From Chlorella sorokiniana (lineage: Eukaryota; Chlorophyta; Trebouxiophyceae; Chlorellales; Chlorellaceae): 64,000 nucleotides of DNA. The stretch covers positions 1,426,001 to 1,490,000 of the forward strand of contig CP084612.1 of assembly GCA_025917655.1 (NCBI GenBank), given 5' to 3'. The translations under genes and the position numbers were made by a program. Positions 58,909 to 63,378 of this stretch are shown in pieces. Within the stretch, counting starts at the first letter, position 1; each line of letters starts with the position of its first letter. Under the pieces are notes generated by a model. It was given only the letters and a program-made list of their open reading frames with translations, did not search any database and was not told where the DNA came from.

Positions 58909-59242
58909 GCCACCCTCCCTTGAGCTGCCAACGCATGCACCTTCCGTGGGACAAGCCTTGGACATGCCAGGCCGGACTGCTCGCTTCTCCTGCCGTGTCA
59001 TTAGCAGAATGTTCTCCCCTTGCACCGCTGCCATTTTGACCAGGCAGCAGCTGCTTCTGTCTTTGCCACAGGCGTTTTGCTCACAACAGCCGCAGCGCAA
59101 TACATCTTCACAGCCAGCCAGCGCAGTGTCCAACCGTTCCACCCTTGCCGCAACGTGTCGCATGCCTTGCGTCACCCGCAGTTTTCTTGGCCCAGCTTGT
59201 CCTCTTTCATTTGCCGCCAAGCTGTCAACAGCATGGATCACA
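58909..59242. other. 3' flank of TLC gene and TenA pseudogene, duplicated
   Basis: 334 bp between the convergent stops. It is nearly the same as 61750-62107 in the distal copy, with scattered substitutions. No independent gene seen. Confidence 0.5.
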
Positions 59243-59980
59243 TCACTCGGCTGCATAGGCCATTGCCCAGAAGTCCCTCTCAAGCTCACACACCTGCTGG
59301 AAGCGGTGGCCGCCGCCACCCTGCAAGCGGCGGCAGGCGGCAGTGCAAGCCGCGGCTTTCAGGCGGCTCGACGGAACCCTGCCGGTCCACTTGCAGCAAA
59401 GGCGCGGCCACCGCGCAGGCCTGGCTGTGGGAGGCTGCAGCAGGCAAGCAGGGGGGCCAGGCTCACCGCTCCGCCTCGCTGGCTGCCGCCAGCGCGTCGT
59501 CGGCCATGCTTTCCAGCTGCACCACGTACTGGCAGAAGGCGTCGCTGCCCCAGCGCAGGCCGATACCTCGGAACGGCTCCACCATGCCTGCATTGTGGGG
59601 GCGGGCAGGTGGGAGAGGGCGAGCGCAGACTGAGCTCGCCCGAGGTCTGGAGCAGCACTCGACGGTTGCTGCCGACGCGCTCACCTACGCCTGGCCGCAT
59701 CCAGCCAAGCACCCCGCCAGCTCAACGTCGCTGTAGTTGCACAGCCCTCGTTGTAGCTGCGCTCTATGGCCCAGGAGGCCACGGCGCGCACAGCGTACGG
59801 CTGCTTGGACACGTTGTGCATGAACTGCAAGTAGCGGCGGCAGGTGGGGTGTGCGGCGGCGTCCTGCGGAAGGCCGCGCTGCGCTGCCAGTTCCTGCGCA
59901 GTGGTGGGATGGAGGAGGCGCACAGGCACTGGTTGCTCGATTCAGGTATGTGGCAGGGCGGCAAGGGGGCGCTTCTTTCC
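59243..59980 (-). pseudogene. 5'-truncated TenA-like pseudogene
   Basis: Matches the last three exons of the intact copy at 62108-63378. Recognisable protein: CRRYLQFMHNVSKQPYAVRA, then SWAIERSYNEG; MVEPFRGIGLRWGSDAFCQY; and the C-terminal FQQVCELERDFWAMAYAAE. Damage: the first two exons (the start and the residues around HPFLADCK and the MKDELLWF block) are absent. In the NEG-W region a base is lost and the intron donor GGTGAGC of the good copy reads GTTGAGC. One T is missing in the last exon (ACCGCTTCC versus ACCGCTTTCC), and Phe-Trp of the active-site region is Ser-Trp. Some single-base gaps could be sequencing errors, but the missing exons and altered donor are not. Confidence 0.75.
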
Positions 59981-60538
59981 ACACTTCCACACAAAACACA
60001 CACAGAGCGACCAGCGGCCGCTGCGTCGTTGGAGGACGTTGAGCGCTGCAGCAGCAGCTGTGCGCTGGAGGCGTACAGGGAGGCTTCCAGATCAGGGGAT
60101 CTCATGAGGGGCTGATATTTTCCAACGGCAGGAGTTACATATGCTGTGCCCAGCACAAAATCGAAACTGCTGTGAAGCCGTTGCATACGAGGAGGCGTCA
60201 CAACACATTTGCTCAATTGCTCAAATCTCATGTGTCCGATGTTGGAGAAGCTCAACTGCCTGTGCAGTTGCCTCAGTGGAGTCTCCGCTGCACAACCTGC
60301 CGCTTCTTGCAGCTGGTGCGCAAGCATATGAGCATCTACATGTTGGGCCAGGGAGGGAGGGCAGGAAAACGCTGAGCACGACCACTGAGTAGCGGGAATA
60401 GCAGCAGCTGCAGCAGATGAATGTCATTCATATCACTGGATCCCGGACAGCGCCGGCCAAACTTCCCCAGAGCTCCGTGTGATCAGACCAGGGACAGCGT
60501 GATGTGGCAGCTGTCTGCCCACGCTGCACACCTCGCTT

Positions 60539-61185
60539 CATGTCTCTATCGTTCACAGCCTGGCTGGATCGCTGCAACAATTCACAATCAGCGTGGCTGG
60601 ATAACCAAGTACAGTGCCGTGCCTCCAAGGCCCGCAACGCTCAGTTAGAGCCACTTTCGGGCGACCCGATCATCAGCAGGTGATCCAACTTGGCACCAAG
60701 GTTGGTGATGCGGTCGCCAAGCCCCGTCCCCTGCTTGTCAATGCATCTGTCCAGCTTGGCATGCAACATGTCGATGCGAGCACCGATTGCACCCACACTG
60801 GTTTCAATCGTGCTGACTTTGCTGTGCAGATGTTTGTTGTCTTTCTCCAAGCCACATGGCCAAGTCAATCGACTTGGAGAAAGGCAACAAACATCTGCAC
60901 AGCAAAGTCGGCACGATTGAAACCAGCGTGGGTGCAATCGGTGCCCGCATCGACACGTTGCATGCCAAGCTGGACAGATGCATTGACAAGCAGGGGACGG
61001 AGCTTGGCGACCGCATCACTAACCTCAATGCCAAGTTGGATCACCTGCTGATGATCGGGTCGGACCGAAAGTGGCTCTACCTGAGCGTTGACGGCCTTAG
61101 AGGCACGGCACTGTACTTGGTTTTCCAGCCGCGCTGATTGTGACCTTTGCAGCGGTCCAGCCAGGCCGTGAACGATAGAGACATG
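60539..61185. repeat. Long inverted repeat (fold-back element), 313-bp arms
   Basis: Left arm 60539-60851, right arm 60873-61185, spacer 60852-60872 (21 bp). Every position i pairs with 121724-i across the whole length, apart from two compensating single-base gaps, with scattered mismatches. The ends read CATGTCTCTATCGTTCAC. Each arm encodes, reading outward from the spacer, the same coiled-coil peptide: DNKHLHSKVSTIETSVGAIG, then ARIDMLHAKLDRCIDKQGTG and DRITNLGAKLDHLLMIGS. The right arm holds a complete 93-codon frame (60856-61137 plus); the left arm encodes the mirror version (minus). A third short copy of ACGGAGCTTGGCGACCGCAT follows at 61186. It lies between the two copies of the segmental duplication. 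It could be a MITE or fold-back transposon, or the head-to-head duplication of one exon. Confidence 0.85.
60856..61137 (+). CDS. Coiled-coil ORF inside the inverted repeat
   Basis: 93 codons starting MAKSIDLEKGNKHLHSKV in the spacer and right arm. Predicted to be almost entirely a heptad-repeat helix (VGTIETSVGAIGARIDTLHA), then a short hydrophobic end (ALYLVFQPR). The arm on the other side carries the same protein in mirror orientation with a stop after LLMIGSPESGSN. I cannot name a family. No intron is needed. Expression is unknown; it may be a captured exon or a remnant of a transposon protein. Confidence 0.35.
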   Translation: MAKSIDLEKGNKHLHSKVGTIETSVGAIGARIDTLHAKLDRCIDKQGTELGDRITNLNAKLDHLLMIGSDRKWLYLSVDGLRGTALYLVFQPR

Positions 61186-61724
61186 ACGGAGCTTGGCGAC
61201 CGCATCAACTTACTGCCCGCCCCCAATCAGCGTAGCCGCCACGATTGGTGCTATCACGGGACGCGCCCACAACCACTGCAACACTGGCAATGGGTGCAGG
61301 TATTAGAGGCAGGCCGCTCAGGTGCCCATCAAGAAAAGGGATCATAAGTATCAAGACAGACCATTCCAGCGTGCTAGGCAAGCATAGGGCACTAGAACTC
61401 GCTTTCCATGAGACGCCGCCATTGCCGCCGCTACCTCCGCTGCCGTCCCCACCAGTGCCGCTGCCGCCACCCGTGCCGCCGCCGCCGTTTTATCCAGTGC
61501 CGATATTATTAGGGTGCCGCAGCTGTCGGGGAGCGAAGCGCACCCGCCTTTGAGCCGCAGCGCGCCAAACCATCCTGCGCCCACCCACCCAGCGGTTCGA
61601 CAGCGGTAAAATCGGCGCTACACGAGACATGGCACGCCCGTTGAAAATGCGAACAACCTAGCAGACGCGACAGAGGTGCATGAGGGCTGTGAGTGACTCA
61701 CAGCAGGCCCAGCATGAAGGTTCT
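61186..61724. other. Sequence between fold-back element and distal duplication
   Basis: Apart from the 22-bp third copy of the arm sequence at its left end and the proline-codon tract at 61417-61495, I see nothing that can be named. Confidence 0.35.
61417..61495 (+). repeat. CCG/CCA-rich tract encoding PPL/PPV repeats
   Basis: Degenerate trinucleotide-based tract that would read [20 protein letters not shown] in one plus frame (part of an open frame from 61245 to 61553). Low complexity; on the other strand it reads Ala/Val-rich. No evidence that it is translated. Confidence 0.6.
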
Positions 61725-62107
61725 TCTTGGTGGCCAGCTGGATGAGGCGGCGCCCAGCGGCGGCGCCGCGGCGATGAGCGCCGGCCCGCCGGCCCCCCCC
61801 CCCCCAAGCACCTTCCGACCGTGTGGAAGCCTTTGACATGCCAGGCCGGCCTGCTCGCTGCTCCTGCCGTGTGCTTAGTTGAACTTTCTCTGCTGCCATT
61901 TTGACCAGGCAGCAGCTGTTTCTGTCTTTGCCACAGGCGTTTTGCTCACGACAGCCGCAGCGCAATGCATCTTCACAGCCCGCCAACGCAGTGTCCAAAC
62001 GTTTCACCCTTGCCGCAACGTGTCACATGCCTTGCGTCACCCCCAGTTTTCTTGGCCCAGCTTGTCCTCTTTCATTTGCCGCCAAGCTGTCAACGACATG
62101 GCCCTCA

Positions 62108-63378
62108 TCACTCGGCTGCATAGGCCATTGCCCAGAAGTCCCGCTCCAGCTCACACACCTGCTGGAAAGCGGTGGCCGCCTCAACCCTGCAAGCGGCGGC
62201 GGGCGGCGGTGCGCCCGCGGCTTTCAGGCAGCCCGACGGGAACCCTGCCACTTGCAGCAAAGGCGGGGCCACTGCACAGGCCTGCCTGTGAAAGGCTGCA
62301 TCAAGCGTGGGGGGCCGAGCACACCGTTCCGCCTTGCTGGCTGCCGCCAGCGCGTCGTCGGCCATGCTTTCCAGCTGCACCACGTACTGGCAGAAGGCGT
62401 CGCTGCCCCAGCGCAGGCCAAAGCCTCGGAACGGCTCCACCATGCCTGCATTGGGGGCGGGCAGGTGGGAGAGGAGACACACAGACTGAGCTCGCCCGAG
62501 GTCTGGAGCAGCACTCGCCGGTTGCTGCCGACGCGCTCACATGTGCCTGGCCGCATCCAGCCTAGCGCCCCCGCCAGCTCACCGTCGATGTAATTGCGCC
62601 AGCCCTCGTTGTAGCTGCGCTCTATGGCCCAGAAGGCCACGGCGTGCACAGCGTACGGCTGCTTGGACACGTTGTGCATGAAGTGCAAGTAGCGGCGGCA
62701 GGTGGGGTGTGTGGCGAGCGCGGCGGCGTCCTGCGGCAGGCCGCGCTGCGCTGCCAGTTCCTGTGTAGTGGTGGGGTCGAGGAGGCGCACAGGCACTGGT
62801 TGCTCGATTCAGGTACATGGCAGGGCAGCAAGGGAGCGCTTCTTCCAGGGGTGCCCCGCATGCATGGAAACCGTGCGGAAGGCGGGCAGCGCGGCGCTGT
62901 AGCGGTCCCGCCCGGCCGCCCACCGCAAACCACAGCAGCTCGTCTTTCATGGCCCCCAAGCCCCCAGCAGCAGGTCCATCTGGGCAGCGGGGGCCTTGCA
63001 GAGCAGGGCGGCTACGAAGCGGGTGAACTCTCGCGCGAAGGTGGCGTCCTGTAGAGGGGGCGCGCCAGGAGGGCTTGTGAAGTGAACAAAGACAGGGAGG
63101 GAGGGCTGCGAGTTGGGCAGCAGCAGGGCCAGGTGCCTGCGCACAACCGTGGAGGTCCACATTGAAGTGCGCTCCTCATGCCCAACAGAACTGCGCGCAT
63201 CGCAACACAGCACGGCGCCAAGGCTCTCAGCACCCGGCCAGGTTCACCTGCACCAGCCATGCGTTGAACTGGGCAGCCTGAATCGCGCCGCTCTTGCAGT
63301 CTGCCAGGAACGGGCGTGGGTGGCTTCGTGCCACGCACCCTGGCAGGCCGCCAGCAGCGCAGCGCAGGAGGACGCCAT
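62108..63378 (-). CDS. TenA/THI-4-family protein (haem-oxygenase fold), about 5 exons
   Basis: TenA proteins salvage thiamin pyrimidine (aminopyrimidine aminohydrolase or thiaminase II activity), acting on degraded thiamin; some eukaryotic relatives have other roles. ATG at 63378-63376 (MASSCAALLAACQGAWHEAT). Exons: 63248-63378, about 62880-63048, 62583-62760, 62325-62445, 62108-62186. Family blocks: PFLADCKSGAIQAAQFNAWL with VQ; DATFAREFTRFVAALLCKAP; GGLGAMKDELLWF; THPTCRRYLHFMHNVSKQPY; AVAFWAIERSYNEGW; and the C-terminal Glu motif CELERDFWAMAYAAE. The Trp/Glu pattern FWAIE-Y-W and LE-FW-A is as in TenA. Frame breaks at about 63320, 62961-62965 and 62900. The end of exon 2 and a possible small exon near 62790-62820 are unsettled. 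No transit peptide is obvious. Confidence 0.75.

Follow-up and report, generated by a model that had tools for sequence, protein, structure and literature searches.

Probable fold-back duplication as the origin of a long palindrome in a coiled-coil gene family of Chlorella sorokiniana, and its recurrence at one site of the family

Introduction

How did a palindrome whose two arms can be read as the same coiled-coil peptide come to lie in the genome of the green alga Chlorella sorokiniana, and what might it do? The original prediction, made from a stretch of 64,000 nucleotides (the window; contig CP084612.1, positions 1,426,001 to 1,490,000, here contig C10), offered three readings: a fold-back or MITE-type transposon, a hairpin small-RNA source, or a head-to-head exon duplication. 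Allen et al. in 2004 reportedly described miRNA and hairpin RNA (hpRNA) genes as born by inverted duplication of a fragment of their target gene. To our knowledge, this inverted-duplication model for the birth of silencing hairpins has been argued mostly from single cases. In this study, the head-to-head duplication turned out to be the best fit among the three readings. As to its origin and its folding potential, the palindrome is probably a fold-back duplication of the coiled-coil end in a tandemly amplified, fast-evolving gene family with a transmembrane (TM) segment and a coiled coil.

Results

Structure of the palindrome

The palindrome covers window positions 60538-61186 and consists of two arms (60538-60851 and 60873-61186) around a 21-nt gap, in agreement with the arms of about 313 bp and the 21-bp spacer first described. 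Excluding flank columns, the arm alignment has 315 columns, of which 21 are mismatches and 2 are gaps; one flank column per end brings this to 317 columns, 23 mismatches and 2 gaps. In a BLAST comparison with itself, the whole palindrome, spacer included, gave 656 columns at 90.9% (E 0.0). The pairing register was thought to be constant (i with 121724-i), which applies to blocks I1 and I3 only; the middle block (60582-60660 with 61065-61143) pairs at 121725, a shift by one because two 1-bp indels cancel each other. In the inner coil part (60662-60850 / 60874-61062, 189 bp) all 10 arm differences are transitions, and the outer arm part holds several transversions and both indels. The predicted RNA fold has a free energy of -611.5 (plus strand) and -626.1 kcal/mol (minus strand), far below the means of 20 shuffles per strand (-229.7 and -234.3 kcal/mol; z -47 and -64), which bears out the very long hairpin that had been expected. 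The gene-sense transcript is predicted to fold into a nearly perfect stem of ~310 bp. The features of the locus are as follows (boundaries of the TM exon remnant by eye).

58934-59977, minus strand (strand of its gene inferred): flanking segmental duplication, first copy, outside the palindrome, 88.6% identical to the second copy
60162-60537, minus strand: 3' flank kept in paralogues, continuous with the left arm
60538-60851, minus strand: left arm, copy in the ancestral orientation, with the end of the coiled-coil gene (LEKDNKHLHSKV...LLMIGSPESGSN*) and ~100 bp of 3' flank
60852-60872, no strand: spacer of 21 bp, with an ATG at 60856 in frame with the right-arm peptide
Spacer and last right-arm bases, minus strand: likely fold-back hinge, CCAAGTC-GATT-GACTTGG
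60856-61137, plus strand: open frame of 93 aa, MAKSIDLEKGNKHL...YLVFQPR*, over spacer and right arm
60873-61186, plus strand: right arm, lying between TM exon and coil as an inverted copy of the left-arm segment, with the coil frame open as far as YLVFQPR*
61185-61207, plus strand: extra 23-bp exact copy of arm piece 60996-61018, on the outer side of the right arm and overlapping it by 2 bp
61213-61275, minus strand: shortened TM exon remnant (...VIAPIVAATLIGGG), ending at the palindrome junction
61276-61714, minus strand: upstream gene part, Gly-rich N-terminal region, homologous to upstream parts of the C10:1517- and 1519-kb units
61805-62844, minus strand (strand of its gene inferred): flanking segmental duplication, second copy, outside the palindrome

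Read along the minus strand, the order is the upstream part (61714-61276; three matches at 66-69% DNA identity), the short TM exon (61275-61213), the extra coil piece (61207-61185), the inverted copy, the spacer, the coil and the 3' flank (60537-60162). Upstream part and TM remnant thus lie beyond the right arm, and the left arm together with the 3' flank is collinear with unduplicated paralogues, namely that at C10:1490.3 kb, which matches at 93% along 100 bp of the outer arm, and that at C10:1491.8 kb, which matches at 77%. These two paralogues match from inside the left arm into the 3' flank; therefore, the left arm is ancestral and the right arm is the added mirror copy. The site does lie between the two copies of a segmental duplication, as had been noted, although not 'exactly', the copies being ~560 and 618 bp away. 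Read on the minus strand, these copies contain FMHNVSKQPYAVRAVASWAIERSYNEG and FMHNVSKQPYAVHAVAFWAIERSYNEGW, respectively, and pieces of the duplicated segment had no Pfam match. TENA_THI-4, considered as an identity for this segment, was discarded, as this Pfam family was matched on C3 only and not here.

The gene family

The genome (38.8 Mb in 15 contigs) was searched with the arm and with its peptide. The arm has at least six matches, itself and its partner included, all on C10 within 33 kb and all in one gene family; the peptide matches additional sites at lower identity. At least 14 family loci were found, 12 on C10, one on C4 (2531 kb) and one on C7 (1733 kb).

Family loci on C10 (kb): 1156.8, 1158.2, 1486.5 (the palindrome of the window), 1490.3, 1491.8, 1517.2, 1519.3, 1565.0, 1566.7, 1568.3, 1569.7, 1571.0

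The gene models (exons, starts), read by eye from the sequence, have a common layout: the N-terminal region is Gly-rich, one exon encodes a lone hydrophobic segment (e.g. FLRELQAPVVAAFLVVGVAAVVGGAISCWCKLDKLE), and a coiled coil and then a tail (for instance GSDRWYNLCLVGLGGTVVYMAAKPR*) follow. In the 1571-kb unit, the coil (C10:1570959-1571231) consists of in-frame KSIADLDTKVA tandem repeats, whose copy number varies among the paralogues. The earlier impression that no described family contains this peptide agrees with the Pfam and PDB results. A Pfam scan of selected members gave weak coiled-coil matches, all below cut-off, the best PDB match (a chain named k-cTRP5) had an E value of 0.0065, and a search of phage DNA for relatives gave no match. 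In the portions of the literature covered by our search, no precedent was recognised for this gene family or for such palindromes in Chlorella. Constraint on the family is weak, with dN/dS ranging from 0.68 to 1.28 in five pairs: 1.00 (1491.8 versus 1490.3 kb), 0.93 (C10:1158 versus 1156 kb), 0.68 (1571 versus 1568 kb) and, involving sense arms, 1.28 (1517-kb sense arm versus 1519 kb) and 0.89 (1571 kb versus 1565-kb sense arm).

Long inverted repeats around a short spacer would suit a fold-back or MITE-type transposable element, and a related cassette is indeed found in another gene on C7 (see below). However, the multiple dispersed copies with target-site duplications that had been suggested as a check did not appear: the arm matches found, at least six, stay in one family on one contig, and a target-site duplication was not seen by eye at the window palindrome. 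In addition, the left edge of the palindrome is collinear with paralogues over 60162-60692. Homology thus runs across the outer edge of the left arm, and therefore this edge is no insertion boundary. The cassette on C7 also takes in the TM exon, which lies outside the palindrome. A transposon is therefore very improbable and was rejected as contradicted by the copy distribution and the collinear left edge; for long palindromes with coding arms, a transposon origin is not to be assumed. Fold-back read artefacts occur in assemblies, and an assembly chimera had also been considered. Such an artefact should leave near-identical arms, whereas the arms here differ at ~7% of positions (21 mismatches and 2 indels) and the palindrome pattern was found again at other loci, so that a chimera is hardly credible.

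Coding content of the arms

It had been claimed that the same outward frame is open in both arms over the coiled-coil part. This holds for the first 63 codons of the coil frame. Beyond them, the right-arm frame continues to ...YLVFQPR*, giving 93 aa counted from the ATG at 60856 and a tail similar to that of the C10:1571-kb paralogue (SDRWYNLCLVGLGGTVVYMAAKPR*), whereas the left arm is shifted and ends with ...GSPESGSN*. Nine of the 63 codons differ between the arms, four of them silently and five by replacement (right/left G/D, G/S, T/M, E/G and N/G), and the differences are thus not notably conservative, contrary to the first impression. Nor is the proposal that coding capacity was kept after the duplication borne out by the counts: four silent changes at 43 sites stand against six replacement nucleotide changes at 146 (pN/pS 0.44, Fisher p 0.24), and another of the six frames for the arms, on the reverse strand and with 4 stops, gave p 0.028. 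Arm pairs at other family palindromes (described below) were mixed. The 1565-kb inverted arm gave pN/pS 0.22 (p 0.005) against the C7 inverted arm and 0.26 (p 0.001) against 1571 kb, but a reverse-strand frame of the latter pair gave 0.25 (p 0.001). The 1565-kb arms against each other gave 0.51 (p 0.12), and the C7 inverted arm against 1571 kb 0.70 (p 0.54). With such mixed values across arm pairs and frames, arm dN/dS was rejected as proof and we therefore make no claim of coding retention.

Recurrence of palindromes in the family

Palindromes were found in four of the 14 family loci (C10:1486.5, 1517.2 and 1565.2 kb; C7:1733 kb), and the other ten had no such palindrome. Besides the one in the window, these are:

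C10:1517204-1517704: second family palindrome, 82%
C10:1565173-1565532: third family palindrome, 79%
C7:1732992-1733287: fourth family palindrome, 80%, at a locus fetched for its TM exon match

All four closely follow the TM exon on its 3' side; in each, the inverted copy precedes the direct coil, and the hinge falls where TM exon and coil meet. The observation is therefore wider than the one first reported: it is a recurrent mirror duplication at one site of one family, in one case also in another gene. A BLAST scan covering 160 kb of C10, limited to pairs separated by less than 2 kb with E no higher than 0.01, gave only three palindromes of more than 350 columns (656, 506 and 381; the next had 182), which are also the only ones with arms longer than ~100 bp, and all three lie on family coils. 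For random placement of these three palindromes, p is ~3e-5, a post hoc value that uses an estimated 500 bp per coil exon. The background for the palindromes comprised 160 kb of one contig and loci fetched for other reasons. The next palindrome in size (C10:1534918-1535094, 177 bp, 79%) is not obviously of the gene family.

Across 411 query bases, TM exon included, the palindrome on C7 and that at 1565 kb are 87% alike, and judged by this similarity they clearly represent one lineage and one event. The gene that holds the C7 cassette has a Pfam match to oxysterol-binding protein (E 3e-8, L038:3314-4672). Another frame there, C7:1732239-1733309 (L038:4239-5309), runs without interruption across TM exon and entire palindrome until a stop, and its first part matches the end of the oxysterol-binding-protein Pfam family with E 0.4, below cut-off. 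In our reading, this frame would be the next exon of the oxysterol-binding-protein-like gene, and the TM exon with the palindrome has the appearance of a chimeric C-terminus or of an insertion at the edge of an intron.

The tail segment was used for a tree, from which the inverted arms of 1565 kb and C7 were left out. The two arms of the window palindrome are sisters (0.998), next to the 1490.3/1491.8-kb units (0.842), and the arms from 1517 kb group with the 1519-kb unit (clade 0.900, inner node 0.199). Over this segment, the arms of the window palindrome are 93% identical to each other versus 81% to the nearest unduplicated paralogue, and those at 1517 kb 86% versus 77%. This pattern is absent at 1565 kb: of 123 sites, 20 distinguish the two arms from each other, and 20 and 23 set them apart from the 1571-kb unit. 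The palindromes are unlike in their outer breakpoints and in their hinge sequences. We read this as at least three independent palindrome lineages.

Alternatively, a single ancestral palindrome might have preceded the expansion of the family, with the inverted arm lost in most copies and the arms kept alike by gene conversion. That all hinges lie at the start of the coil, with the inverted copy always on the 5' side, would fit such an origin, as would the common event behind the 1565-kb and C7 palindromes, the support of 0.199 at the inner node of the 1517/1519-kb group and the 1565-kb arms being as far from each other as from the 1571-kb unit. However, close relatives of the palindromic units (1490.3/1491.8, 1519.3 and 1566.7/1571 kb) are among the 10 of 14 loci without one, and an ancestral palindrome thus needs several losses that restore the TM-coil reading. 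The dissimilar outer breakpoints and hinge sequences speak against it as well. We consider this origin unlikely.

Proposed origin

Repeated fold-back duplication is the reading that we prefer. A nascent strand, synthesised from the 3' end of the gene towards its 5' end, would arrive at the TM-coil junction, snap back on a short self-complementary sequence, copy itself back for ~310 bp and return to the template near the TM exon. The product would have the order TM exon, inverted coil, hinge, coil and 3' flank. The same kind of event would have occurred at the same junction in at least two other family lineages. The hinge centres are short self-complementary sequences in the window palindrome (CCAAGTC-GATT-GACTTGG), at 1517 kb (CTTCA-AG-TGAAG) and at 1565 kb (GGTCAAGCTTGACC), and template switching is the mechanism that we infer for the making of the palindrome. 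Extra antisense pieces at the outer edge (23 bp in the window palindrome and 57 bp at 79% at 1517 kb) suggest that the switching was serial.

The inverted copy could also have become a new intron, with a GCA/GTAAGT donor by the TM remnant (~61213, minus strand), an acceptor at or just after the hinge, and the TM-coil frame kept. By eye, the donor-like GTAAGT is indeed present where TM remnant and palindrome meet, and with either TTTCTCCAAG or CTGCACAG the join would be in the coil frame, but a third of all splice pairs are expected to be in frame by chance. The 1565-kb unit lacks such a donor (by eye), the C7 copy is open straight through, and a 310-bp stem between intron and exon would impede splicing. 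A new intron is quite improbable on these grounds.

The main rival to a function of the palindrome is a neutral relic of the same origin. The palindrome would have broken a family member that is now decaying, recurrence would reflect a mutation-prone spot in a repetitive tandem gene, and there would be no RNA role. We give this about an even chance; our confidence in the fold-back origin and folding potential overlaps with it, the origin being the same. In the window unit, the TM exon is shortened and the left-arm tail is out of frame with that of the right arm, as expected of a relic, and the dN/dS values given above point to a family under little constraint. Less easily reconciled with simple decay are the sense coil, which is open in all three palindromic units on C10, the presence of one palindrome in two places (C10 and C7), and an excess of G.U over A.C mismatches. 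Over four palindromes, the transition-type arm differences in gene-sense orientation would give G.U at 42 of 64 sites and A.C at 22 (p 0.017). Without the C7 copy the numbers are 37 to 18 of 55 (p 0.014), and the direction is the same in all four (11:5, 17:10, 9:3 and 5:4). Selection for pairing would produce such an excess, and a transcription-linked mutation bias could do so too.

Hairpin RNA and silencing

The gene fragment whose inverted duplication makes up the arms persists elsewhere in the genome. As the most likely consequence of the fold, gene-sense transcripts would be Dicer substrates. If the palindrome is transcribed and diced, as we infer, a palindromic member would lower its own mRNA and could yield siRNAs against its closest paralogue. 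A hairpin source of small RNAs, one of the three original readings, is possible, given the Argonaute and Dicer candidates described below, and the palindromes would fit proto-hairpin-RNA loci; a silencing role is plausible from the sequence. The reach of such silencing can be estimated from common 21-mers. The window hairpin has 21-mers in common with one of 12 other regions (33 with the 1490.3-kb unit), and therefore trans-silencing could reach few paralogues. The 1565-kb hairpin has them in common with two of 12 regions (44 with the 1571-kb unit, 68 with C7), the 1517-kb hairpin with one (3 with the 1519.3-kb unit) and the C7 hairpin with three (58 with 1565, 7 with 1568 and 4 with 1571 kb).

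It is tempting to speculate that the family repeatedly made its own coil end into a hairpin at a fixed hotspot, which would restrain the tandem family by siRNA in trans or as a Dicer-cut switch in cis. We regard this larger proposal as doubtful. If true, it would describe an arms-race-like system, with proto-miRNA genes of several ages beside their unduplicated parents.

Discussion

The palindromes described here are of a known kind, the inverted duplication of a gene fragment. What sets them apart is the recurrent mirror duplication at one site of one family. This one family offers palindromes of varied divergence (arms ~93, 82 and 79% alike), each near unduplicated relatives and one also in an unrelated gene. 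With several palindromes and their unduplicated relatives at hand, direct tests become feasible for the mutation itself (hinge, breakpoints and additional switches) as well as for its functional outcome (small RNAs and the influence on paralogues).

The published systems are compared here on the basis of parts of the cited papers. In soybean, the inverted repeat of soy-miR15/49 was subsequently copied to other chromosomes (PMC3903507). As with miRNA and hpRNA genes born by inverted duplication, a gene fragment lies inverted beside itself in the Chlorella family, and the C10 and C7 copies resemble the spread in soybean; unlike in the system as presented there, the inversion falls inside the coil part of the family member itself, was found in at least three lineages, and is here read from the DNA sequence (PMC3903507). 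The hairpin RNAs Nmy and Tmy of Drosophila simulans are similar in that hairpin loci are related to, and match, a fast-evolving gene family. According to the portion of that work used here, however, they are separate autosomal genes with a demonstrated siRNA function, whereas the Chlorella palindromes lie in the family array and are read from sequence (PMC10292708).

Long inverted repeats in coding sequence, gained and lost and with template switching as the proposed mechanism, are also described from the mitochondria of Nematomorpha (PMC6649704). The arms of those palindromes are perfect and both encode conserved parts of the protein (PMC6649704), whereas arm identity here is 79-93% and, in the C10 units, the host frame is interrupted by the inverted arm. 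In the window palindrome, arms of ~93% identity, a frame-shifting indel and p 0.24 for coding constraint between the arms are what was found in place of perfect arms that both code within one functional protein.

Template switching is known to generate RNA hairpins (PMC8794818), and fold-back inversions from single-strand hairpins are known from yeast (PMC7467729). As proposed for the present palindromes, a switch or fold-back in these systems puts a reverse-complement copy beside its source. In comparison with what is excerpted from these two papers, the scale of ~150-310 bp and the recurrence at one site of one family are different (PMC8794818; PMC7467729).

Among green algae, Chlamydomonas provides a parallel for hairpins within protein-coding transcripts. 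Many of its miRNAs originate in mRNA introns and UTRs, DCL3 has substrates in introns, UTRs and exons of its mRNAs, and in dcl3 mutants the levels of some mRNAs with hairpins, including some without small RNAs, rise (PMC4817775). Unlike DCL3 in Chlamydomonas (PMC4817775), the Dicer of the present genome is a candidate read from the DNA sequence. Chlorella and Coccomyxa are reported, in the excerpt cited, to have single Dicer and Argonaute genes (PMC4014436). In the genome searched here, an Argonaute candidate has a Piwi domain over cut-off at C1:3585-3586 kb, and a blindly chosen flank stretch of this locus gave no match in a Pfam scan. The Dicer candidate rests on exon-scale matches: Dicer_dimer is over cut-off (33.3 bits) at C1:1091 kb, and an RNase III match with one TGA at C1:1086 kb, on the same strand and ~4.5 kb away, is below it (25.3 bits). 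The open reading frames scanned there gave RNase III at 21.3 bits and nothing. Two further loci, on C3, have RNase III matches over cut-off.
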